From Mycolicibacterium poriferae (GTDB lineage Bacteria > Actinomycetota > Actinomycetes > Mycobacteriales > Mycobacteriaceae), in contig NZ_AP022570.1 of the NCBI RefSeq assembly GCF_010728325.1, forward strand, positions 4,154,001-4,218,000: 64,000 nucleotides of DNA. Direction: 5' to 3'. Positions within the stretch are counted from its first letter, which is position 1. Each line of letters opens with the position of its first letter. Below, piece after piece: positions 5,909-15,436 of the stretch. Under the pieces are notes generated by a model. The model was not told where the DNA came from. It saw nothing but the letters and a program-made list of their open reading frames with translations, and searched no databases. Both the position numbers and the translations under genes were made by a program.

Positions 5909-5946
5909 GTGGGGCGGGCGGGGCTCGAACCCGCGACCAATGGATT
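5909..5946. repeat. Attachment site, distal copy (tRNA 3' half remnant)
   Basis: 38 bp identical to 15362-15399. It is the displaced 3' half of the tRNA from the anticodon loop to the discriminator base, in the same orientation. The first mismatches are at 5908 and 5947, which set the limits of the crossover region. Confidence 0.93.
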
Positions 5947-6118
5947 CAAGGACAGTGATTCGCGTCGGTTAGCGGTGATTCTCAATAAGAGTTGCACGGC
6001 AACATACTTGACGCCTAATGACTGTTGCTGGTGGTCACCGATTCTCGACAATTCTCAGTCATTTAGTGCGAATAAAGTACGGATTGTGTGCCCCACCCGC
6101 GCGACACATCTCGGGCTA
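5947..6118. other. AT-richer element end with ATTCTC repeats
   Basis: Together with 5780-5908 this makes more than 300 bases without a gene. The 172 bp inside the element end are poorer in G+C than the flanks and contain ATTCTC at 5978, 6041 and 6051; the last two are exactly 10 bp apart. These could be integrase arm-type or excisionase binding sites. 5780-5908 holds nothing I recognise. Confidence 0.4.
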
Positions 6119-7300
6119 CTAATCGCTGTTTAGCTCAGGAAACAGCGCCCGGCTGTTCAGGCTGCGGAGCAGAGGGCCAACCAGATCCTCGACGACCCGC
6201 TGTGGTGCCGAATTGATTTCCACGAGAGAAGCCGCCGCCGACGCCTCGTAGCGATCTTCGCTATATGGCTCGGAGTGCCGCATCCGCCCGTGCGCCGCGT
6301 AGGACGTTTTGTCTTCCAGGCCAGTGACGAGCAGGCCGAACCTCCAGGACCCCGCGAAACCAAATCGGTCGGAAAGGACGCCGCTCAACCGCACCAGAAG
6401 TTCAGTGTGGCTAACAATTAACTCCTCGAATATCCACTCCTCCCCACCTTCTCGAACGGCTTCCATAACCGGACGGCGAGATCCGAGCACAAGGACGCCT
6501 GATTCCCGCAGTTGAAGCTCGGCAGCACGCTTGTCCTCAAACCCCCTCCCCTCTTTGGTGTAGGTCCTGACAGCTACAGCACCGGCTCGGCGAACAGGAG
6601 TGGTGTTACCGAAGTTGGGGTCAAACGCCCTTTGCTGGCCTTCCACGCCAGCGGCCTTCAGCATCTCGTGCACAGTTGTCTGCCACTCGCCGACAGCAGC
6701 CGAAAGTGGCTTCAGCATTCCAGGGGGAGCCCCCAGCGGGAGGGCGAGCGCCACCATCAGCGGAGGCTTCACCGAGGGGGTGGTACCTAAAAAGCTGTCC
6801 AATTCACGGCTTGCGGCCTGGATCGCGTCGTCATGGTCGGCGACTTGCTGTTGGTGAAGCCTAAGCACTTCTGCATGTGACAACACTCGGTTCCGCTTGT
6901 CGCCACGACCGTAGTACTTGTCGTCGGCCATGTGGGGCGCCCGCGGCGATGCTGGGACGCGGACGACCAGTACTCCTCGCCCGCTGCCGGGCGGCGTCTC
7001 GATGGCGACGGTGGACACCGCGACGCCCTCCTGCACTCGCATCGCGCCGACTTGCTCGACCCGCTCCGGCAGTCCGTCCAGTTCGACAGGGTTGATCGAC
7101 GGAGGTGACGTGGCTTCATCTACCCCGATCAGGATGATGCCGCCATCGAGCGCGAACGCGGCGATGTCTTTGGCGATCTCCTTGTTGCCGGCGTTGCCGG
7201 GCGGAAGTTCACGCTTGAGGTCAAGGTAGTGGGTTTCAGTCAGCAGCTCGTTAGCCGCCGCGTCAACAATCTCTTGCTCGGTGGACGGTGACCAGATCAC
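6119..7300 (-). CDS. Schlafen AlbA_2-domain protein (element cargo)
   Basis: 393 residues. The N-terminal 150 residues carry the AlbA_2/Schlafen pattern: THYLDLKRELP, then KEIAKDIAAFALDGGIILIGVDE, and a later YYGRGDKRNRVLSHAEV segment (the YxRxG-like part). The C-terminal 240 residues match no family I know. AlbA_2 proteins are predicted nucleic-acid binding and are widespread in mobile elements, some as regulators and some suspected in defence. It lies at the att-distal end, the usual cargo position in satellites. Its base composition is less GC-rich than the chromosomal neighbours. Not required for any capsid or replication function I can see; role unknown. Confidence 0.75.
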   Translation of the reverse strand: MIWSPSTEQEIVDAAANELLTETHYLDLKRELPPGNAGNKEIAKDIAAFALDGGIILIGVDEATSPPSINPVELDGLPERVEQVGAMRVQEGVAVSTVAIETPPGSGRGVLVVRVPASPRAPHMADDKYYGRGDKRNRVLSHAEVLRLHQQQVADHDDAIQAASRELDSFLGTTPSVKPPLMVALALPLGAPPGMLKPLSAAVGEWQTTVHEMLKAAGVEGQQRAFDPNFGNTTPVRRAGAVAVRTYTKEGRGFEDKRAAELQLRESGVLVLGSRRPVMEAVREGGEEWIFEELIVSHTELLVRLSGVLSDRFGFAGSWRFGLLVTGLEDKTSYAAHGRMRHSEPYSEDRYEASAAASLVEINSAPQRVVEDLVGPLLRSLNSRALFPELNSD

Positions 7301-7386
7301 AATCGCCGAGTATGCCCAATCCGGCTGACGTCGATGAATCCCTCCTCAGAAAATTTCAGGTCTCTGGACTGCGAGTCCCCTCGACC

Positions 7387-7536
7387 GGGGTCAAGGTTTG
7401 GACTGCCAGTCGGGGTCACCCGCCAGGGGTGCACCTGACCTCTGGCTCCACAAGAATCGCCTAACTCGCGGCAGCAGCAGTTTCTCTTGCCGGGGGTCAA
7501 GGTTGGGGTGGCTGTTTGGGGACACCCGCCAGGGGT
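7387..7536. repeat. Two 44-bp imperfect direct repeats beside the HNH gene
   Basis: Copies at 7387-7430 and 7493-7536, 35 of 44 positions identical by hand alignment, start points 106 bp apart. Each begins GGGGTCAAGGTT and ends ACACCCGCCAGGGGT or the close variant, and the end forms a small stem (ACCC/GGGT). They occupy the 247-bp non-coding gap between the HNH gene and the AlbA_2 gene. Placement next to an HNH nuclease suggests a packaging or recognition site; unproven. Confidence 0.6.
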
Positions 7537-7547
7537 TGGGGCGCGCA

Positions 7548-7898
7548 TCATCGGACTCTGTTCTGTCGGGTGGCGTGCTTGCGGGCGTTGCAGCCGCGGC
7601 ACAGCACTTGGAGTTCTCCGTGTGGGTCGCCGCCGAGGGTGACTTCGTGGATGTGGTCAGCGGTCAGGTCGGCACTGGCGTGTGCTTCTCGTCCCCAGCC
7701 GGGGCACCAGTCGCCGTGCTGGGCGCGGTGTGCGTCGACTGCGGCTTTGCGTCGGGCGCGGTCGCGGGGTTCGGATAATTTGGAGCCGAACTGGCGCCGG
7801 TATCGGTCGTTGGCGCGGCGGTGTTCGGTGCAGCGTGGCTCATATTGCAGTTCGGGGCATCCGGGTTGGGCGCAGGGCCGCAGGCGGGCTTTGGGCAT
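7548..7898 (-). CDS. HNH endonuclease, phage-type
   Basis: 116 residues from ATG 7898, chosen because AAGGA lies six bases upstream; a longer frame opens at 7952. The HNH motif reads LTADHIHEVTLGGDPHGELQVLCRGCNARKH, with two CxxC-type zinc knuckles (CAQPGC near the N-terminus and CRGC in the motif). In cos phages of Gram-positive bacteria such HNH proteins work with the large terminase to cut packaging sites. No terminase is encoded here, so if it acts in packaging it would have to use a helper's terminase. Confidence 0.85.
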   Translation of the reverse strand: MPKARLRPCAQPGCPELQYEPRCTEHRRANDRYRRQFGSKLSEPRDRARRKAAVDAHRAQHGDWCPGWGREAHASADLTADHIHEVTLGGDPHGELQVLCRGCNARKHATRQNRVR

Positions 7899-8035
7899 GG
7901 TGGTCCTTGCGGGGTGGTGGGTGGCGAACGCGGGGCGCAGGTACTGCTGCACACACGTGGCGTGGTCGTGGCGGTCCTTGCCCGGAGAATTACTAACTGG
8001 GGTTTGACGCCCGCGCGTTCGCCTGGTCGGAGGGG

Positions 8036-8878
8036 TTAGGAACCGTCGGGTTCGCCGATGCAGACCACGGCGGCTTCGTGGGGGAAGCCGAACCCGACGC
8101 GCATGGTGGCCCTGATGCCGAGGCGGTCGGACTCGAAGTATCGGGATTCATCGACGCGCAGGTCGACGTCCTGGCGCACGATGACGAACACCCGTGTGCC
8201 GTCGATGGCCCAGACGACGTTGTCGGGGACGACGGTGTCGGGCACTGACCACAACGGCACGCCAAGGATCTGGCGGCGTGTGGGCAGTGTGGGGTCGGGC
8301 TGCAGCAGCGGCAGGTTGCTGTCGGTGGTCTGCTTGACCTTCGACAGGGCCAACACCGTGGCGGCGTTGGCGACGAACGCGGTGACCATCGCGCCGACGT
8401 TCTCGGCCAGGGAGATGGCTTCGGCGAACGCGTCGGTGTTCGTCAGCGTCGTGGTGGTGGTGGACTGGTAGGTGATCGACTCGATGCCGTCAGGCCCGTT
8501 CGCGGTGGTGTCGGCGAAGAACGCGGCGTCGACCTTGCGGGCGAGGTCGCGGGCGATGGAATCCCCGACGACATTCTGAGCGGCGGGTGAGGAGTCGTTG
8601 GCCAGTTCGTTGGAGATGATCGACAGGGCCGCCAGCTTGTCGGGCTTGACAGTGACTTCGTCGACCCCGGCGTCGGAGGGGTTGATGTCTGATCCCTCCG
8701 GTGTCCAGGCGGCGACGGCGTCGTTGGTGACGATGGGGATGCGGAACTCGCCGCTGTTGGTCGGGACGACGGTGGCGATCTGCATGGCTACCGAGGCGGC
8801 TTCGACGGGCTGGACGATGAGTGCGCCGACTTCTTCGGGGGTGAGTATCCCGCCGGCTGCGTTGGTGTACAAGGGCAT
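8036..8878 (-). CDS. HK97-fold major capsid protein
   Basis: 280 residues, start at ATG 8878 behind AGGAG. The sequence begins almost directly with the mature capsid pattern (GGILTPEEVGALIVQPV... AATVVPTNSGEFRIPIV), continues through the P-domain spine region (VDAAFFADTT..., ISLAENVGAMVTAFVANAATVLAL) and ends with GVPLWSVPD...VFVIVRQDVDLRVDESRYFESDRLGIRATMRVGFGF, typical of siphophage capsids. It lacks the long N-terminal delta domain, in keeping with the separate scaffold-like protein upstream in transcription. No protease gene is present. Similar capsid genes exist in phiRv1 and phiRv2. Confidence 0.9.
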   Translation of the reverse strand: MPLYTNAAGGILTPEEVGALIVQPVEAASVAMQIATVVPTNSGEFRIPIVTNDAVAAWTPEGSDINPSDAGVDEVTVKPDKLAALSIISNELANDSSPAAQNVVGDSIARDLARKVDAAFFADTTANGPDGIESITYQSTTTTTLTNTDAFAEAISLAENVGAMVTAFVANAATVLALSKVKQTTDSNLPLLQPDPTLPTRRQILGVPLWSVPDTVVPDNVVWAIDGTRVFVIVRQDVDLRVDESRYFESDRLGIRATMRVGFGFPHEAAVVCIGEPDGS

Positions 8879-8970
8879 TGGTGCTCCTGGTGGTCAGACA
8901 CGCGTGGCGCGTGCAGAAGTTGCTTGGGATTCCCGTCGGCGCCGGGCCGGTCGGGTTGCCCACCAGGGGC

Positions 8971-9023
8971 GGTCGTGCAGCTCGGGCGGGCGCCTGGCCC
9001 CAGAAGTCCCGGGCTGCACAACC
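8971..9023. repeat. Long inverted repeat in the capsid gene leader
   Basis: 16-base arms at 8971-8986 (GGTCGTGCAGCTCGGG) and 9008-9023 (CCCGGGCTGCACAACC), 14 of 16 paired, with a 21-base GC-rich loop. It lies in the 165-bp gap between the scaffold-like gene and the capsid gene, both read leftward. It could be an attenuator, an RNA stability element or a protein binding site. No T-run follows in either direction. Confidence 0.55.
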
Positions 9024-9043
9024 ATTCTAACCCCTGCTTGTGT

Positions 9044-9580
9044 CTATTGGGTGTGTCCTTGCCTGCGGCGTTGGTCGGTCAGGACCGTCGACCAGGTGGC
9101 GCTGCTGGGGGCGGATTGGCTGCGGACGCCTTGGCCGTAGTCGGCGCCGGCGGGCCAGGGTGGGGTGTAGCTGGCGCCGAGTTGGGGGCGTTGCGCGACG
9201 AGTGTTTCTGCGGCGGTGCGCAGTTCGTCGGTGAGGATGTCGCCGTTGTCGTCGAGGTAGTCGGCGAGGTCGGCGTGGCCGACGTCGAACAGGTCGGCGG
9301 GGGTGGCGATCACGTCGCTGATGATGAGTTCGGCGTGGCGGCGTTGGTAGGTGGCGAGTTGGTCGCGGACGGTGGCGAGTTCGGTTTGGGTTTCGCGGAG
9401 TTGGCGGCGGCGCTTGGCGGCTTCGCTGTTGGGTGAGTCCTGTTCGGGCTCCACGCCGTCGGTGTCGTCGGTGGTGGCCTCGGCTTCTGGTTCGGCTGCC
9501 GGTGTGGTGGTGTCCTCGACAGTGTCGCCGGTGGGGGTGGCCGGGTCGGGGCTGGTCGGTGTGTGCTCGGGTGCGGTCAT
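9044..9580 (-). CDS. Capsid scaffold-like protein
   Basis: 178 residues. The first 50 are Thr/Pro/Asp/Glu-rich and disordered; residues about 53-85 form a charged coiled coil (AAKRRRQLRETQTELATVRDQL...); a helical segment follows (PADLFDVGHADLADYLDDNGDILTDELRTAAETL) and the tail is basic. This layout is typical of mycobacteriophage scaffolding proteins and the gene directly precedes capsid in transcription. It would chaperone shell assembly and then leave. Identification rests on layout and position rather than a conserved motif. Confidence 0.72.
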   Translation of the reverse strand: MTAPEHTPTSPDPATPTGDTVEDTTTPAAEPEAEATTDDTDGVEPEQDSPNSEAAKRRRQLRETQTELATVRDQLATYQRRHAELIISDVIATPADLFDVGHADLADYLDDNGDILTDELRTAAETLVAQRPQLGASYTPPWPAGADYGQGVRSQSAPSSATWSTVLTDQRRRQGHTQ

Positions 9581-9583
9581 TGG

Positions 9584-9874
9584 TCAGTGTCCTTCGCGGT
9601 CGATGATGGTCAGTCGGGGCACGTCGTCGGCGGTGAGTCCGGCGGCGTCGAGGTCGGCTTGCGTGACCGTCCAGGAGCCGAGGGTGGCGCTGCTGGTGAC
9701 GGTGGGTCCGACTCCGATCGGTACGCCGTCGGTGTCGGTGAGGATCTCGCCGGGCTCGCTGACGTTTACGGCGGTGCCGATCGTCTGGTTCAGGTGCAGG
9801 ATCTGCTCACGGGTCAGCGGGGCAGCTGGAACCACATCCTTGGGTGGCTTGCGGAATCGATGGTCGTCGGTCAT
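9584..9874 (-). CDS. Small phage-type protein upstream of scaffold
   Basis: 96 residues, acidic, predominantly strand: TREQILHLNQTIGTAVNVSEPGEILTDTDGVPIGVGPTVTSSATLGSWTVTQADLDAAGLTADDVPRL. No cysteine, signal or membrane segment. It ends three bases before the scaffold-like gene and probably shares its transcript. It could be a head accessory or a regulator; I do not recognise the family. Confidence 0.65.
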   Translation of the reverse strand: MTDDHRFRKPPKDVVPAAPLTREQILHLNQTIGTAVNVSEPGEILTDTDGVPIGVGPTVTSSATLGSWTVTQADLDAAGLTADDVPRLTIIDREGH

Positions 9875-9916
9875 GTCCGTTTTCTCCTTACTGGGGGGTG
9901 ATTGCCTGGCGCCCGG

Positions 9917-11725
9917 TTAGGCGCCGAGTCCGTCGGTGTTGTCGGTGATGCGCCAGATCCGTTCGGTTTTTGAGTCGCCGTGCGCGGGGATCGACTCGAT
10001 ACGCGTCGACAGCCCGGCGGCGCGGCGCACTGAGTCCCAGGGATGCCCGGCGGCGATTCCTGCGGTCTTGGCGTCGTCGGGGGTGACGGTGTCGCCGTCC
10101 TGGTTGTCGAGCCACCTATCCAGCCACGCTGCGGCGGACTCGTAGAGGGGTGGCTTGTGGTCGGGGGTGATCGACCAGATCGCACGGCCACGCTTGCGGC
10201 TGACGGTACGCATATCGGGGTGGGCACTGACGGCTTGATGGATGCTGCCCTTCGAGTAGCCGAGGGCTTGCCCTGCCTCGATCACAGCAAACGACTCGAC
10301 GGTGGTATGCCCGGCGTCGAGGAGATCAGCGACGTGTTGGTTGAGCCATTTCTGGCAGGACAGCTTCGGGCGCACCGATTCATGCGACCTGCGGGAATCC
10401 AGATCTGTGACGCTGGCAGAGCGGTCACGGGTGACCACAGTGGTCACCCCCTCTGAACTGGGCATTCGGGGGGTGACCCCGTCGGTCACGGGTGACCCCA
10501 TCCGATACCTGACGCTGTTATGCTCACCGGACCGAGCAGACACGAGGCCTTCCGCTTCCAGCAAACCGATTGCTTGGTCGAAAAGCTCCCGCTTTTCCCG
10601 CTTGCCCAACCGTCGGCGAAGGTCACCTCCGGCCTGCTCACCGTCACGCTCCAGCATCCGCAGCAGACTGCGCTTGACCGTCTCCAGACGGCTGGCGTCG
10701 TAGAACTCCTCCCCGACCGCGCGGGCGATCGCGCGCTCACGCACCTTGGCGCGGTCGGCTTTGCGGGCTTCGGCGACGATCCAGCCGCGGGTGTGATCCG
10801 ACACCGCCATGACGTCCGCGGAGCGGTCCCAGTCCCATTGCCCGACGACGGAGCGGCCGTGCATGATCGCCAGCAGCGCGGCGACCTTGCAGCGGGTCAG
10901 CATGGCGTGTCCATCGAGCGCGTCAGCCTCTCCCCGTTGGCGGGCCAGGTGCGCAGAGATGATTGTGTCCGCAATTTCGGTGGGGCCGTAAACGATCTCG
11001 ATGACCCCGTCGCCACCCGGCTGCCAGGACGGCAGCGCGGTTTCCAAAGGTTCGGGATCTCGCGGCGCCTTGGTCGGCATATGCGGGTCGATCGTGGGTG
11101 CCCACAAGAACCTCTGCGGCGTTCCCCCCGTGGTGTCGTTGAAGATGACCCCGGTGTGGAGCGGTTGCGCGCCCACCGACAGACACGCTCGATAGGTGTG
11201 GGCCTGCACGATGCGGCTCGTCGCCTTCGAGGCGTTGGCCTGGCCCAGCAGCTCACCCATCGCCATGGACTTCAGCTGTGCCAGCAGGATTGAACCCTGC
11301 CGGGAAGCGATTCCAGCCATGGTGTCGATCTCGGGGACGTTGAAGATCGCCGCAGTGACCGGCTCATGGTCGGCGTCGGCTTTGGCCGGCGGCTTGAACG
11401 TTTCGGCGATTCCCTCACCCGACCCGATGGGCAGCTCCAGGATCGGCGCAGGATAGGCGAGGCGGGCAACTTTGTCGGAGATGCCCTTACCGCCACCGGA
11501 CAGCGAGACGAACGCGCACAGCAGGTTCAGAGACGCACGACCACCGATCAACCCGGGCAGCTGGACCTTGGGGTCAGTTCGGGCCGCCACCCGCAGCAGA
11601 ACCGCGAAGAACACCGCCCACGGTGCGGCGTAGCGAGCCCGCGCCCACAGATAGATCTTGTGCAGTTGCGGGCTGCCGGAGTCGAGGAAGAATTCCTCCG
11701 TCGGCCCCCAGTGGTCGTCGTTCAC
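9917..11725 (-). CDS. Satellite replication protein, DUF3987/primase-helicase-like
   Basis: 602 residues. Residues about 40-330 look like the ATPase core of phage or satellite replication proteins: a glycine-rich loop LSGGGKGISDK in the P-loop position (degenerate, without the first Gly), and a hydrophobic strand ending in acidic residues (AAIFNVPEIDTMAG) like Walker B. A helical regulatory part follows (EARKADRAKVRERAIARAVGEEFY). The last 160 residues hold two winged-helix-like repeats, each closing with an aromatic IW strand (RAIWSI and ERIWRI). The gene occupies the replication position between early genes and head genes, as in phiRv1. It overlaps the next upstream gene by four bases. Confidence 0.7.
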   Translation of the reverse strand: MNDDHWGPTEEFFLDSGSPQLHKIYLWARARYAAPWAVFFAVLLRVAARTDPKVQLPGLIGGRASLNLLCAFVSLSGGGKGISDKVARLAYPAPILELPIGSGEGIAETFKPPAKADADHEPVTAAIFNVPEIDTMAGIASRQGSILLAQLKSMAMGELLGQANASKATSRIVQAHTYRACLSVGAQPLHTGVIFNDTTGGTPQRFLWAPTIDPHMPTKAPRDPEPLETALPSWQPGGDGVIEIVYGPTEIADTIISAHLARQRGEADALDGHAMLTRCKVAALLAIMHGRSVVGQWDWDRSADVMAVSDHTRGWIVAEARKADRAKVRERAIARAVGEEFYDASRLETVKRSLLRMLERDGEQAGGDLRRRLGKREKRELFDQAIGLLEAEGLVSARSGEHNSVRYRMGSPVTDGVTPRMPSSEGVTTVVTRDRSASVTDLDSRRSHESVRPKLSCQKWLNQHVADLLDAGHTTVESFAVIEAGQALGYSKGSIHQAVSAHPDMRTVSRKRGRAIWSITPDHKPPLYESAAAWLDRWLDNQDGDTVTPDDAKTAGIAAGHPWDSVRRAAGLSTRIESIPAHGDSKTERIWRITDNTDGLGA

Positions 11726-12060
11726 GATGCCCTCCGATGCTCATCGATCTGGCGGCGCCGCTGGACTTGGCGGGCCACGTCGCCCCAATCCTCCGCAGCC
11801 GCGATCTGTTCTCCCGCCTCGGCGATGGCGTCCTGGCGGCATTCTTCGGCGATGGCCCACCACACCGCCGACCACAGAATCGCCTGCCACTTCGCGGGGT
11901 CAGTGTCGTCGAGCTGGCACCACACCGGCGTTCCTGGAATCAGCCTGGGGTCAGCCAGCATCGGTGACAACATCTCGTAGACGGGATAGAACTTGACTTC
12001 ACGCGAGGGGGTGCCCGCCCCCGGCAGGGAGCGAGCGTCCTCGATGGGGTAACCCGTCAC
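11722..12060 (-). CDS. Phage protein, possibly DUF2742
   Basis: 112 residues: an N-terminal strand part (REVKFYPVYEMLSPMLADPRLIPGTPVWCQL) followed by a helical Trp-rich region (KWQAILWSAVWWAIAEECRQDAIAEAGEQIAAAEDWGDVARQVQRR). I link it tentatively to DUF2742, a family of mycobacterial prophage proteins. ATGA-type overlaps join it to the replication gene downstream and the Cys-rich gene upstream, so it is translated as part of the early operon. Function unknown. Confidence 0.6.
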   Translation of the reverse strand: MTGYPIEDARSLPGAGTPSREVKFYPVYEMLSPMLADPRLIPGTPVWCQLDDTDPAKWQAILWSAVWWAIAEECRQDAIAEAGEQIAAAEDWGDVARQVQRRRQIDEHRRAS

Positions 12061-12821
12061 CGGCTCATGCCTTCGGACGAGACGGTGGTGGACGGGCGCA
12101 CCGAGTCGAGGGCCTCGATCAGGTACTCCACCGTGTGCAAGTCGAGTTTCTTCGGGAATCCCGACTTGTCGGCGAGCAGCACAGCGAGGAACTCAGTCAT
12201 TTTCGTGCCCAGCAGCTCTCGCCGCTGCCGCAGCAGCTCGAGGTGCCACACCCGCAGGCAGTCCACGCAGTCGCCTTCGCGCCACCACATCCCGGTGTCG
12301 GAATCTTCGTACTCCTGATCCCGCACGGTCATCGGCTTGATCTGGCGACTGTCGTCATCATCGGAGCGTTTCTTGCTCGCCGACGGGCCGGAGGGATCAC
12401 GCGTGAGTTTCATCGGCTCGCCACACAGTCCTATAACGGTGTCTTTGCCGGCATCCCATGCCTCTTGGGCGTCGCTCTTGTACCAGAAGTGATTGAGGTA
12501 GGGGTTGCGCGGCATGCCCTGCCTGTACTTTTGAGCAACCTCGCCGAGTTGAGCAGCGTTGAAGTGTCCGTGGCTGTTGCCAGTGGCGACGCGCTGCATC
12601 ATCTCGGCGTGGTCACGAAAGGTGTCCTTCTCGGGGTGGATGATCGCGTGGGTGGTGACCCGCGCGCACTCGGCGCACTTGAGATCACCGGTCTCGCGCC
12701 ACCAGTCCCGGTCGATCGGCCCTGACAGCCAGTAGTTCTCGGCTCGGTGGTTCCGGGGCCGGCGGCAGGTCCGCATCGTCCCGCAGACACAGCACAGCGC
12801 TTTCTTGTTTTGGTCGCTCAT
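12057..12821 (-). CDS. Cysteine-rich early element protein, zinc-binding-like
   Basis: 254 residues. Two CxxC pairs near the N-terminus (CCVCG at about 10 and CAEC at about 50) and one near residue 185 (CVDC) suggest zinc ribbons. The middle is charged and includes a short poly-Asp run, and the C-terminus is helical. It is coupled by four-base overlaps to both neighbours. The zinc-ribbon pattern fits nucleic-acid binding during replication or regulation. I do not recognise a named family. Confidence 0.65.
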   Translation of the reverse strand: MSDQNKKALCCVCGTMRTCRRPRNHRAENYWLSGPIDRDWWRETGDLKCAECARVTTHAIIHPEKDTFRDHAEMMQRVATGNSHGHFNAAQLGEVAQKYRQGMPRNPYLNHFWYKSDAQEAWDAGKDTVIGLCGEPMKLTRDPSGPSASKKRSDDDDSRQIKPMTVRDQEYEDSDTGMWWREGDCVDCLRVWHLELLRQRRELLGTKMTEFLAVLLADKSGFPKKLDLHTVEYLIEALDSVRPSTTVSSEGMSR

Positions 12822-13066
12822 CGGGTCACCTCCGCGCGGTCGAGCGCGTCGGCACAGCGGTCAACGAGGACGGCAGCCTGGCGCAGATGTCCGAGCGCGG
12901 TGACGAGATCGACCACGCCGAACAACGGGGCGGTGCGGGGCAGCTCGCGCAGCACCCGATTGCCGTCAGCGCGGGCCAGATCCACCAGGTTGGAAATGGT
13001 GTCCAGCAGCAGCGCCTGCTGGGACAGCACACTCGGCGGTGGCGGGGCGGCGTGGTGTGGCATCAT
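12818..13066 (-). CDS. Small helical early element protein
   Basis: 82 residues from ATG 13066, preceded by a GCAGG ribosome binding site. After a Pro-rich start it is one long helical stretch (SQQALLLDTISNLVDLARADGNRVLREL... VDLVTALGHLRQAAVLVDRCADALDR). No motif is recognisable. It overlaps the downstream Cys-rich gene by four bases. Confidence 0.6.
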   Translation of the reverse strand: MMPHHAAPPPPSVLSQQALLLDTISNLVDLARADGNRVLRELPRTAPLFGVVDLVTALGHLRQAAVLVDRCADALDRAEVTR

Positions 13067-13080
13067 TGAGTTACCTGCTT

Positions 13081-13230
13081 TCAGTAGGTCTGAGATGGAG
13101 CGGTCCCCGCCGGTGTTGACGCACCGGATTCATCGGGGGCCGTTCTGTTATTGGTGGGGCGAAGATCCTCGGTGTCGTCGTCGTCGATCAACCCGAGGTC
13201 GGCGTGGTCCTGCTGGGGAAGCACTCGCAT
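13081..13230 (-). CDS. 49-residue protein translationally coupled to excisionase
   Basis: Short gene read by eye: ATG at 13230 overlaps the stop of the upstream excisionase-like gene in a TGATG arrangement, and a TGA ends it at 13081. The product is acidic with a run of four Asp (LGLIDDDDTEDLRPTNN). The overlap and position inside a tightly packed operon support translation, but no homologue is known to me. It may be a small regulator or not made at all. Confidence 0.45.
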   Translation of the reverse strand: MRVLPQQDHADLGLIDDDDTEDLRPTNNRTAPDESGASTPAGTAPSQTY

Positions 13231-13445
13231 CACGCAGCGTCACCGCCGCTGAATTGGCTGTTCTCCCAAGCGATGCACTGTGACAGCAAGTACCTGGTGT
13301 GCCTTCCGAAACGTCGGTAGGGCGGACCCTTCTTCTGGCTGGCCCACTGGGCCAGTGTCTTCTCGGGGATTTGGAGCCGTTCGGCGACCTGAGATCGGGT
13401 TAGCCAGGCGTCGACCGGTGGGTCGGGTGAGGGCGCGGTGGCCAT
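13230..13445 (-). CDS. Excisionase-like MerR/HTH_17 DNA-binding protein
   Basis: 71 residues. The pattern WLTRSQVAERLQIPEKTLAQWASQKKGPPYRRFGRHTRYLLSQCIAWEN is the helix-turn-helix excise-type fold found in recombination directionality factors and other small phage regulators. It is the first gene of the leftward operon and faces the XRE regulator across a 123-bp control region. It probably helps the integrase excise the element, and may also act as a transcription factor. Confidence 0.8.
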   Translation of the reverse strand: MATAPSPDPPVDAWLTRSQVAERLQIPEKTLAQWASQKKGPPYRRFGRHTRYLLSQCIAWENSQFSGGDAA

Positions 13446-13466
13446 CAGCTACTCCTATTGTTGTGT

Positions 13467-13548
13467 GTACATCCGCAATTCTCGTTGCTTCTGGTCCACT
13501 CTTGCGGACCTAAACGAAGCGTACACCCATTCCCGTACAGATCCGCAA
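13467..13548. promoter_or_regulatory. Control region with three TCCGCAA operator-like sites
   Basis: The divergent region 13446-13568 between the excisionase-like and XRE genes has TCCGCAA at 13472-13478 and 13542-13548 on the plus strand and its complement at 13502-13508. The two plus copies follow GTAC or GTACAG. Spaced repeats between a repressor gene and the early operon are typical immunity operators, so the XRE protein is the likely ligand. Confidence 0.6.
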
Positions 13549-13568
13549 CATACGGGCGAGAAAGGCCT

Positions 13569-14162
13569 ATGCTGCGTGTCATGCCGCAAAAAACGGATGT
13601 TCACGACTGGGGCGACCCGCCGAAGAATTGGGCCGAGGAACAGGCGCGCCGCACCGCCCTGGAGATTCGCAGGCTGAGAGGGAAACAATCCGCCCAATGG
13701 CTCTCCGACAGAACCAAGGAGCTTGGGAGCCCGATCACCAGGGCCGTGATCTCGGATCTTGAACTCGGTCGACGTCGATACGTTACGAGTGCCGAGTTGA
13801 TCGTTCTGGCTGCTGCACTCGACACCGCACCAATCGCGTTACTGTACCCGCCGCCCTACGACGAGATCATTGAGTTGGTGCCTGGTGTAGAGCATCCGAA
13901 AATTGCTGTCGTGGAATGGTTTTGCTTAGATGACTATGCTGCTCGATACCAGCCCAGTGAGGGGGTAGGCGATTTCTCTGACCGCACTTGGCCGCTCCAT
14001 GCGGCTCGCGCGGTAGAGAAGCTGGAGGAAGCCCAGCGCGGCCTGTTGGCATCACTTGCCAATGAGTCCAACCCGGATTCGCCTCTCGCTCGAAGCATGC
14101 GGCGGGAGCTTGATTACATCGCGGAGCGCCTCAAGGAATATCGGGAAGAGGATGGCCGGTAG
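13569..14162 (+). CDS. XRE-family regulator of the element
   Basis: 197 residues from ATG 13569, which has GAGAAAGG just upstream. Residues about 20-90 form an XRE helix-turn-helix (LEIRRLRGKQSAQWLSDRTKELGSPITRAVISDLELGRRRYVTSAELIVLAAALDTAPIALLYPP). The rest is a helical dimerisation-type tail with no peptidase motif, so it is not an obvious SOS-cleaved repressor. It is divergent from the excisionase operon and overlaps the integrase start, so one transcript likely makes repressor and integrase together in the integrated state. Confidence 0.85.
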   Translation: MLRVMPQKTDVHDWGDPPKNWAEEQARRTALEIRRLRGKQSAQWLSDRTKELGSPITRAVISDLELGRRRYVTSAELIVLAAALDTAPIALLYPPPYDEIIELVPGVEHPKIAVVEWFCLDDYAARYQPSEGVGDFSDRTWPLHAARAVEKLEEAQRGLLASLANESNPDSPLARSMRRELDYIAERLKEYREEDGR

Positions 14163-15318
14163 GCCGCCGCTGCGGATCGGGCAGCACGGGAAGATCACCC
14201 GGACCAGCCTTGGCGGCGGGCTGTGGTTGGCGCGCTGCAAGTTCCGTGACAGTGACGGCGCGGTGCGCCGTGTCGAACGCCGCGGCCCCGCTGGTATTGA
14301 GGACAAGTACGGGAAGCTCGCCGAGGACGCGTTGATTGAGGCGCTCAAGGACCGCCGGCCACCTTCGGACGAGGAGATCTCACTCGACACCAAGATCTCG
14401 ACTCTGGTCGAGCGGCACATCACTCGGCTTGGCGAGGATGGCCGTTCCCCCGCCACAATCTCCACCTACGAGTTCGCGGCGGGGAAGCTGGCCAAGTTCA
14501 TCGGTGGCGTGCGGGTGGGCGAAGCGACACCCGGACGCATCGACGCGGCTATCCGTTCGATGCGGACAACGCACGGGCCGACGATGGCGCGCCAGTCAAA
14601 AACTATTCTCCGGGGCGCACTGCAGCTCACTGTTATGGCCAACGTCTTAGCCACCAATCCGGTACGGGATGTGCAGCCGATCAAATCGAACGATCAACCG
14701 AAGGGCGCGACCGCGCTCACCGCTGGCCAGTTGCGCGAGCTGCTGGGCAAGCTGCGGGCGCACGAGTACAGCCGCCGGCATGACCTTGTCGACCCGATCA
14801 CCTTGTTGATCGCCACCGGCCTGCGCCGCTCGGAGCTTCTGGCGTTGCGGTGGTCTGACTTCGACGAGGACGGCGAGACGATCTTGGTGTGCGGCAAGTT
14901 GGTCCGTGCCAAGGGCGAGGGATTGCAGCGGATCGACGACACCAAGACGGCCTCGGGCAAGCGGACCTTGCCGCTACCTCACTTCGCGGTGGACGCACTC
15001 ACCGAGCGCAGAGGCCGCGAGTACGTCGGAGAGCAGACGATGATCTTCCCGTCCACGGCCGGCACCTGGCGCGACCCGAACAACTTCGGCAAGCAGTGGC
15101 GCCAGGTCCGGGATGACCTCGGCGCGGACGGGGTGACGACGCACAGCTTCCGCAAGACGGTAGCCACCCTAATCGACGACGAGGGACTGTCCGCGCGGAT
15201 CGGAGCCGACCACCTGGGGCACGCCAAGGTGTCGATGACACAGGACCGGTACATGACCCGTGGTCGAGTTCATACCGCGGTCGCGGATCTGCTGGACCGG
15301 ACTATAAAAGACGAATAA
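14152..15318 (+). CDS. int: Tyrosine integrase
   Basis: 388 residues from ATG 14152, inside the end of the XRE gene and behind GAAGAGG; the longer frame from 14056 overlaps the regulator too far. An arm-binding N-terminal region (GQHGKITRTSLGGGLWLARCKFRD) is followed by a SAM-like core-binding domain and the catalytic domain. Catalytic residues are Arg225 (ATGLRRSELLALRW), His331 and Arg334 (HSFRKT), His357 (LGHAKVSM) and Tyr367 (DRYM). The full set is intact. It ends 44 bp from the att repeat in the tRNA, the usual arrangement for tRNA-targeting integrases. Confidence 0.95.
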   Translation: MAGRPPLRIGQHGKITRTSLGGGLWLARCKFRDSDGAVRRVERRGPAGIEDKYGKLAEDALIEALKDRRPPSDEEISLDTKISTLVERHITRLGEDGRSPATISTYEFAAGKLAKFIGGVRVGEATPGRIDAAIRSMRTTHGPTMARQSKTILRGALQLTVMANVLATNPVRDVQPIKSNDQPKGATALTAGQLRELLGKLRAHEYSRRHDLVDPITLLIATGLRRSELLALRWSDFDEDGETILVCGKLVRAKGEGLQRIDDTKTASGKRTLPLPHFAVDALTERRGREYVGEQTMIFPSTAGTWRDPNNFGKQWRQVRDDLGADGVTTHSFRKTVATLIDDEGLSARIGADHLGHAKVSMTQDRYMTRGRVHTAVADLLDRTIKDE

Positions 15319-15361
15319 AAGTCGGATTCAGTAGTGAGCGTTACTAACTACCATTCCTGAC

Positions 15362-15399
15362 GTGGGGCGGGCGGGGCTCGAACCCGCGACCAATGGATT
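15362..15399. repeat. Attachment site, integrase-side copy
   Basis: 38 bp identical to 5909-5946. All but the last base outside the tRNA lies in the tRNA 3' half, so integration rebuilt a working tRNA. Crossover must fall between the anticodon loop and the 3' end. Confidence 0.93.
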
Positions 15400-15436
15400 A
15401 TGAGTCCACGGCTCTAACCGACTGAGCTACCGCCCC
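15363..15436 (-). tRNA. tRNA with CAT anticodon (Met, probably elongator)
   Basis: 74 nt. The cloverleaf folds by hand: acceptor GGGGCGG with CCGCCCC, D arm GCTC/GAGC, anticodon stem GTGGA/TCCAT around loop CTCATAA, and T stem GCGGG/CCCGC. CAT could also be the lysidine-modified tRNA-Ile, which I cannot exclude. CCA is not encoded. It is the target of the integrated element. Confidence 0.9.

Follow-up and report, generated by a model that had tools for sequence, protein, structure and literature searches.

The DNA considered here, a window of 64,000 nucleotides from contig NZ_AP022570.1 of the actinobacterium Mycolicibacterium poriferae, contains an integrated element of 9,453 bp, a length equal to the spacing of the two perfect 38-bp direct repeats that bound it, and hence in agreement with the 9.45 kb claimed in a first-pass annotation of this sequence. 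The right repeat coincides with the 3' end of a tRNA-Met(CAT) gene (15362-15436, minus strand), and a repeat at such a position is the usual mark of a tyrosine integrase restoring the tRNA upon insertion. Genes for the integrase and a helix-turn-helix (HTH) regulator, both on the plus strand, occupy the tRNA-Met-proximal end. Diverging from them, a minus-strand series codes in turn for an excisionase-like protein, small proteins, proteins of 254 and 112 amino acids (aa), a 602-aa replication ATPase, a 96-aa protein, a head scaffold, a major capsid protein (MCP) and an HNH endonuclease, beyond which lie a 247-bp noncoding tract and a gene for a 393-aa protein with an AlbA_2 domain. All open reading frames (ORFs) of the element are intact between its perfect attachment (att) repeats. 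Matches in Pfam, PHROG and NCBIfam support the integrase, regulator, replication protein, capsid and HNH nuclease named in the earlier annotation, which had omitted the AlbA_2 (Schlafen) gene and several small backbone genes. We propose, with a probability of about three in four, that this element is an integrated phage satellite carrying only the shell part of the virion.

The head cassette and the search for packaging, tail and helper genes

The TIGR01554 profile covers the 280-residue capsid only from position 108 to 381 of its 385 positions. Since the alignment begins at 108, the delta domain is absent, as previously claimed, and a separate scaffold is therefore expected. An AlphaFold2 model derived from 77 sequences (predicted local distance difference test, pLDDT, 86.5; predicted TM-score, pTM, 0.82), in which only residues 1-10 score below 50, displays a long helix at 98-120, which we read as the spine helix, plus the strands expected for the E-loop and the P and A domains. 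Foldseek matches of this model include HK97 Head II (TM-score 0.70), the capsid of the Staphylococcus aureus pathogenicity island SaPI1, that of EcCI2 (PDB 9gyi; 0.70 and 0.60 for two chains), a capsid-forming phage-inducible chromosomal island (cf-PICI), and many capsids of phages and gene transfer agents (GTAs). A capsid profile run against PDB sequences gave six matches, among them GTA, Muddy, Bxb1 and R4C, with one including the SaPI1 entry 8vd4. As modeled, the capsid is a complete HK97 fold, and the loss of essential spine or P-loop parts, named in the first-pass annotation as evidence that would tell against its reading, is not seen.

The acidic 178-aa protein encoded upstream of the capsid gene gives by itself only a weak match (phrog_648, E 0.018; no PHROG family at 0.01). 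Through its family the separate scaffold claimed earlier is nevertheless upheld: 19 of 39 members match the head scaffolding protein family phrog_4708, fewer match four other scaffold families, and the net charge of 40 members lies between -6 and -20.

Profiles built from relatives for the small and large terminase subunits (TerS and TerL), portal (c23), adaptor, stopper, two other capsid families and one protease family (c55) had no match when the element was scanned in six frames. Scans of ten element proteins each against PHROG, Pfam and NCBIfam (the 112-, 82- and 50-aa proteins lying outside the PHROG scan) recovered no packaging, neck, tail or lysis gene, nor did the PHROG scan give a match to a protease family; no lysis- or tail-specific profile was run. 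Of the genes reported earlier as not seen, terminase, portal and one protease family are thus absent by profile, and the statement on tail and lysis genes derives from these general library scans. The tail, packaging and lysis genes that would characterize an intact prophage were accordingly not recovered, with the same proviso for lysis.

In the whole host genome (5.93 Mb, two contigs) there are no matches to two portal families (PF05133, PF04860), to one tape-measure family or, for the large terminase, to phrog_9, and a single marginal match to phrog_2 (7.4e-4) in a 662-aa ORF. Barring the latter, the search with these two TerL, one tape-measure and two portal families found no resident helper prophage. 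Two Phage_capsid matches are present, one being the capsid under study and the other lying in a second satellite-like element. This second element, of about 10.6 kb (contig C1, ~3.389-3.400 Mb), has a tyrosine integrase beside a tRNA-Pro gene and codes for a 699-aa replication-type protein, a scaffold, a capsid 52% identical to that of the window, and a head maturation protease (phrog_193, 1.8e-31).

Relatives of the cassette and of the backbone

Matches to the capsid (E <= 0.001, near and remote) are found in 86 of 301 genomes of the host family, and those to the replication ATPase, under the same threshold, in 111 of 396 genomes of the genus, the M. poriferae genome being included in both counts. 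The latter protein aligns with the C-terminal part of phage 'polymerase/primase' families (5e-50, PHROG) and is termed the primase in the comparisons that follow. Neighborhoods were taken around the 46 strongest primase matches other than that of the window, and around a larger set of capsid matches. Their genes were called with a simple codon-usage caller, which recovers those of the element except the 50-aa gene and assigns a later start to the 82-aa gene, and TerS, TerL, portal and protease identities were established by PHROGs on representatives.

Among 61 capsid copies, inclusive of the window and of the phage record WillG (L008), the scaffold gene directly precedes that of the capsid in 51, lies within three genes of it in four and was not found there in six; the head cassette retains the same order across several genera of the family. 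Near the capsid, 26 copies lack TerS, TerL and portal, 22 have TerS only, nine have TerL and portal, three portal only and one TerL only; WillG, counted among the 26, does possess a TerS gene, at the opposite end of its linear map. The most complete sister elements have both TerL and portal (L005, L063-L065, L155, L156, L159, L160), and a tape-measure gene is found near the capsid only in WillG and L162. Hence no sister element was seen with a complete set of tail and packaging genes, the finding which the first-pass annotation had named as one that would overturn its reading, tape measures being the only tail genes profiled. Five other capsid loci have an ORF of at least 600 aa which, by eye, is host-gene-like, and at one locus (L046) the capsid gene is broken into pieces.

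Sizes were compared only for loci with a direct repeat overlapping a tRNA. The 20 such elements with scaffold and capsid and without TerL or portal, the window included, measure 7,355-10,608 bp (median 9,528; interquartile range 9,316-9,895; coefficient of variation 8%), and nine of them fall between 9.4 and 9.8 kb. Seven elements with TerL and/or portal range from 9,514 to 13,597 bp, and those with a long capsid measure 9,314, 9,592 and 9,996 bp. So narrow a spread of sizes among elements with divergent integrases and different tRNA sites is expected if the shell volume is fixed, and, by analogy with known examples, a size near 9.5 kb may fit a shell of triangulation number T=3 or T=4.

The single pair tested, the element and its close relative L001 (capsid 86% identical), gave ratios of nonsynonymous to synonymous substitution rates (dN/dS) of 0.21 (capsid), 0.56 (scaffold) and 0.54 (96-aa protein), which indicates purifying selection on the capsid. 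Across the 15 loci with all four genes compared, capsid and scaffold distances correlate (r 0.51, 0/2000 permutations), those of capsid and integrase display no clear correlation (r 0.14, 180/2000), and neither do scaffold and integrase (608/2000), scaffold and primase (1023/2000) or integrase and primase (504/2000). With 36 loci the values are r 0.52 (0/1000) for capsid and scaffold and 0.06 (140/1000) for capsid and integrase. As capsid and scaffold covary and capsid and integrase do not clearly do so, the shell genes appear to behave largely as a cassette that tends to move as a unit.

A search of 50,697 phage records with the capsid gave 154 matching records, all below 60% identity and at most 34.4% among the 30 matches listed. 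At least 80% of the capsid is matched by only 15 records, none above 34% identity, of which three are remote and twelve come from Mycolicibacterium aichiense (10.9-11.1 kb; OR387110-OR387121, including WillG and Alyssa1); no complete phage with this capsid lineage was found among the records searched. The annotations of WillG and Alyssa1 place a terminase gene, which in WillG is TerS by PHROG, at the left end, and include an adaptor, stopper, serine integrase, capsid and tape measure; neither lists a portal or a major tail protein. The WillG scaffold is 30% and the capsid about 33% identical to their window counterparts, and its adaptor (about 52%) and tape measure (about 49%) resemble those of 53-kb mycobacteriophages. 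These similarities suggest that a related head cassette is carried as DNA in virions, together with a neck and tape measure fitted to phages of the 53-kb type, and the twelve M. aichiense 'phages' look like satellites. The closest relatives of WillG TerS outside the M. aichiense group are in Bernal13-type phages (40%), so not all WillG parts point to one helper. The WillG tape measure (L008 8075-10030) has about 650 aa vs 798 aa in Phaded (L174 1483-3879), being about 150 aa shorter, which would predict a shorter tail. A literature search found nothing on these records.

The 46 primase-anchored loci, scored within 7.5 kb of the primase, reveal several cassettes on one backbone. A recognized capsid is present in 24: twelve have the scaffold-capsid pair described here, six a long HK97 capsid of a single family (accompanied in one case by a tape-measure gene), three a different capsid with its own protease (phrog_1650/phrog_3894), and three further capsids (L078, weak; L092; L162). 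Tape-measure genes occur in eight loci (L083, L088, L091, L128, L135, L144, L162, L163; best PHROG match 1.3e-74 or better), six of them without a recognized capsid. Three other loci have TerS only, two have TerL with or without portal, and the remaining 11 no recognized head, packaging or tape-measure gene; in L084 and L136 no integrase lies in range of the backbone. A capsid hidden in the ~280-aa neighbor of the tape measure was considered for L083, for which the predicted fold is of low confidence (pLDDT 61), mostly helical and not capsid-like. At two loci (L079, L093) the capsid slot holds a 291-295-aa protein without a PHROG match, possibly an unrecognized capsid.

Based on these observations we tentatively suggest, as an idea that we regard as more doubtful than probable, that mycobacterial satellites are built on a modular plan, in which a single backbone for integration and replication bears a swappable cassette deciding which helper parts are taken. 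The cassette would provide a shell only, as in this element at ~9.5 kb, a shell plus packaging genes at 9.5-10.9 kb, or a tape measure without a recognizable shell. The tape-measure form, which measures 12.5-14.1 kb where att sites are defined (L083, L128, L135, L163), could comprise satellites that control the length of the tail instead of the size of the head. A literature search of open-licence papers returned no title on mycobacterial satellites with tape measures.

The distal end of the element and the tRNA-Met locus

The HNH endonuclease is 48.5-51.5% identical, over 96% of its length, to the HNH proteins of six Gordonia phage records. In Nyceirae a related HNH gene runs across the junction of map end and map start and precedes TerS and TerL by three small genes, and in Ewald it lies at the map end. 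This resemblance to an HNH placed before phage terminase genes supports a role in packaging, against which stands the presence of a similar motif in only four of 52 other loci, in some of them outside the element; for the same reason we reject the HNH as a core gene, as a correction to the earlier list. By eye, L001 retains at 2250-2360 an apparent remnant of the start of a deleted HNH gene, and this closest relative compared as DNA seems to have lost the gene by deletion.

The 26-bp motif in the noncoding tract recurs, with up to three mismatches, in two of 396 genus genomes, namely that of M. poriferae and one with the coordinates of L001, and is absent from the other 394. The tract around it (Table 1) is the best candidate that the sequence offers for a packaging or replication site. 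Its predicted RNA fold is no better than that of shuffled sequences (z -0.37). A packaging site shared with a phage was sought and rejected: the 247-bp tract gave 13 matches in the 50,697 phage records, all with E about 10 and hence meaningless, and a 21-bp core of it had no match in viral contigs. The adjoining AlbA_2 protein had no tblastn match at 1e-3 in other loci (62 records, own-genome copies included), and its assignment to a defense family was discarded, as PADLOC gave no match for it or for the other unknown proteins scanned.

Table 1. Coordinates of the features of the element in the window
Feature	Position	Strand	Evidence or remark
attL, duplicate of the tRNA-Met 3' terminus (38-bp direct repeat)	5909..5946		Perfect repeat
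393-aa AlbA_2 (Schlafen) domain protein, candidate cargo or defense gene	6119..7300	-	PF04326 3.4e-8
Noncoding tract with a pair of imperfect direct repeats of 51 bp	7380..7536		Repeats 7380-7430 and 7486-7536, 76% alike
26-bp noncoding motif	7445..7470	-	Identical at L001 2523-2548
HNH endonuclease, 134 aa	7548..7952	-	phrog_144 2.2e-14; kin to HNH preceding phage terminase genes
Major capsid protein, 280 aa, HK97 fold (modeled), no delta domain	8036..8878	-	PF05065 1.3e-36; TIGR01554; AlphaFold2
Head scaffold, 178 aa, acidic	9044..9580	-	Position upstream of capsid gene; phrog_4708 matches in family
96-aa head-cassette protein	9584..9874	-	Relatives adjoin scaffold in L001 and L090
602-aa replication ATPase, backbone gene	9917..11725	-	phrog_28894 5e-50; phrog_11515 3e-49
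112-aa backbone protein	11722..12060	-	Cluster c8, 15/53 loci including window
254-aa cysteine-rich backbone protein	12057..12821	-	Cluster c20, 5/53 loci including window
82-aa backbone protein	12818..13066	-	Cluster c4, 16/53 loci including window; gene caller's later start gives 70 aa
50-aa small protein	13081..13233	-	Missed by gene caller; by eye like small c4 proteins of relatives
Excisionase-like HTH_17 protein	13230..13445	-	PF12728 1.3e-8; phrog_66 9.3e-8
HTH regulator, divergent from operon	13569..14162	+	Weak HTH_3 match; cluster c7, 20/53 loci including window
Tyrosine integrase, 388 aa	14152..15318	+	PF00589 1.2e-18; phrog_1 1.4e-52
attR, inside tRNA-Met 15362-15436	15362..15399		Perfect repeat and tRNA call

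The ortholog of the gene to the right of the element was examined in 29 relatives (L099-L127): a tRNA-Met gene is nearby in 17, and element genes are found within the 1.5-kb flanks in none. No one-to-one empty site was recovered in these, the genes of the window's left flank being absent there save for one weak match (L120). In 16 relatives inspected, the tRNA-Met beside this ortholog has several different neighbors on its other side, none being left-flank genes of the window. The tRNA-Met locus is probably an insertion hotspot.

Known satellites, alternative explanations and a predicted mechanism

Mycobacterial elements with integrase and capsid proteins were proposed as candidate PICIs in 2023 (mSystems; PMC10654092), a paper which describes their mobilization by a phage as yet to be demonstrated. 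The element has both defining features described there, the integrase (PF00589, phrog_1) and the major capsid protein (PF05065 and the fold model), and going by its genes it falls within this kind already proposed. Further likenesses are the mycobacterial hosts, the tyrosine integrase at tRNA genes, a helicase-type replication gene and, in some candidates, scaffold or terminase genes; their capsids are diverse, and closely related capsids are found in otherwise dissimilar candidates (PMC10654092). Section 9 of that paper offers no mechanism and does not mention a common backbone bearing different head or tape-measure modules, or a clustering of sizes. phiRv1 and phiRv2 are, as described there, likewise integrated mycobacterial elements with a capsid gene and named PICI-like, phiRv1 differing by a large serine recombinase according to a title cited in that paper.

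The cf-PICIs share with the element an MCP of similar fold, an HNH endonuclease and the lack of tail genes. By the definition quoted in PMC10690885, however, they encode protease, portal, connectors, TerS and TerL, none of which was found here (for connectors, by adaptor and stopper families only), and the delta domain is replaced by a separate scaffold protein. Hence the element is not a cf-PICI, and this comparison in the first-pass annotation holds only in part; nor is the HNH conserved. Its reading of the element as satellite-like, with a capsid of its own, a separate scaffold and no detectable helper genes in the host genome, stands. The satellites MulchRoom and MiniFlayer of Streptomyces phages are also actinobacterial and have their own capsid and scaffold, but differ in possessing TerS, TerL, portal and adapter and in being described without primase homologs, in contrast to the replication ATPase present here (PMC10690885). 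The M. aichiense records are alike in their related capsid and, in WillG, scaffold, in their size of about 11 kb and in the lack of an annotated portal or major tail protein in two of them, and unlike in their serine integrase, small terminase, adaptor, stopper, tape measure and deposition as phage genomes.

If the element is a working satellite, infection by a helper phage would trigger its excision and replication. Its scaffold and capsid would then assemble a small shell onto the helper portal, the helper terminase would fill this shell from a site on the element, for which 7380-7536 is the best candidate, and the helper neck and tail would complete the particle. The shell would fix genome length near 9.5 kb and exclude the larger genome of the helper. 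Small-head formation and completion by helper tails are inferred, and the clustering of sizes near 9.5 kb fits them.

Several observations weigh against this proposal. The shell-only form would need its scaffold to recruit a foreign portal into the satellite shell, and phage portals are normally matched to their own scaffold. Neither particle, excised circle, induction nor helper has been observed. Constraint on the scaffold is weaker than on the capsid, and the exchange of shell genes is not free, given the weak correlations of capsid with primase distances (r 0.21, 17/2000; 15 loci) and of scaffold with integrase distances (r 0.14, 4/1000; 36 loci). The size class, drawn from tRNA-repeat loci only, extends down to 7,355 bp, four of its 20 members carry TerS, and in L043 the repeat is only 18 bp. 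The backbone does not need a shell, judging by the 11 loci without a recognized head, packaging or tape-measure gene, and the M. aichiense records do not describe themselves as satellites.

The element could instead be the remains of a larger temperate phage which lost its portal, terminase and tail, with the capsid left over. The lack of detected packaging and tail genes would fit such a history, and both the seeming deletion of the HNH in L001 and the broken capsid gene of L046 indicate that decay happens in this family. Nevertheless, the ORFs are intact and the att repeats perfect, and the records searched contain no complete phage bearing a capsid of this lineage. The recurrence of the cassette in the same order in several genera, the purifying selection on the MCP (one pair) and the clustering of sizes together argue for a working satellite rather than a wreck, and we consider a defective prophage unlikely.

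Satellites often carry defense genes at their distal end. The AlbA_2 cargo gene in that position, taken with the lack of a detected portal or terminase, raises a second alternative, in which capsid and scaffold are kept to poison the head assembly of an invader rather than to package the element. Such a device sits poorly with the addition of TerS (22/61) or of TerL and/or portal (13/61) in sister elements, which fits packaging, with the constant size, and with the deposition of the M. aichiense relatives as phage genomes with linear maps; together with the negative PADLOC result this leaves it somewhat less probable than decay. Classical PICIs, by the account in PMC10690885, redirect helper capsids. 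SaPIs and other classical PICIs, in which the helper capsid is made small, have no MCP of their own, unlike this element. It might still travel mainly in helper capsids, its MCP and scaffold merely redirecting or co-assembling with them in the manner of the SaPI and P4 size-determination proteins, and the want of a detected portal agrees with this. Its capsid is a full-length HK97 protein of a lineage distant from known phage capsids, which makes co-assembly with a helper MCP unlikely, and we give this explanation the least credence of all. The preferred explanation thus remains a satellite that carries its own shell.

If the proposed mechanism is true, a satellite docks its own shell on a portal and motor that evolved elsewhere, and its helper range would hinge on a single scaffold-portal contact, which is directly testable. 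The family offers many natural pairs for such tests, and a ruler (~9.5 kb) for the size of small shells with the HK97 fold. Should the tape-measure branch prove real, piracy by satellites would reach beyond head size to the length of the tail. More generally, the relatives of the element suggest that in these mycobacterial satellites the shell genes are a swappable part.

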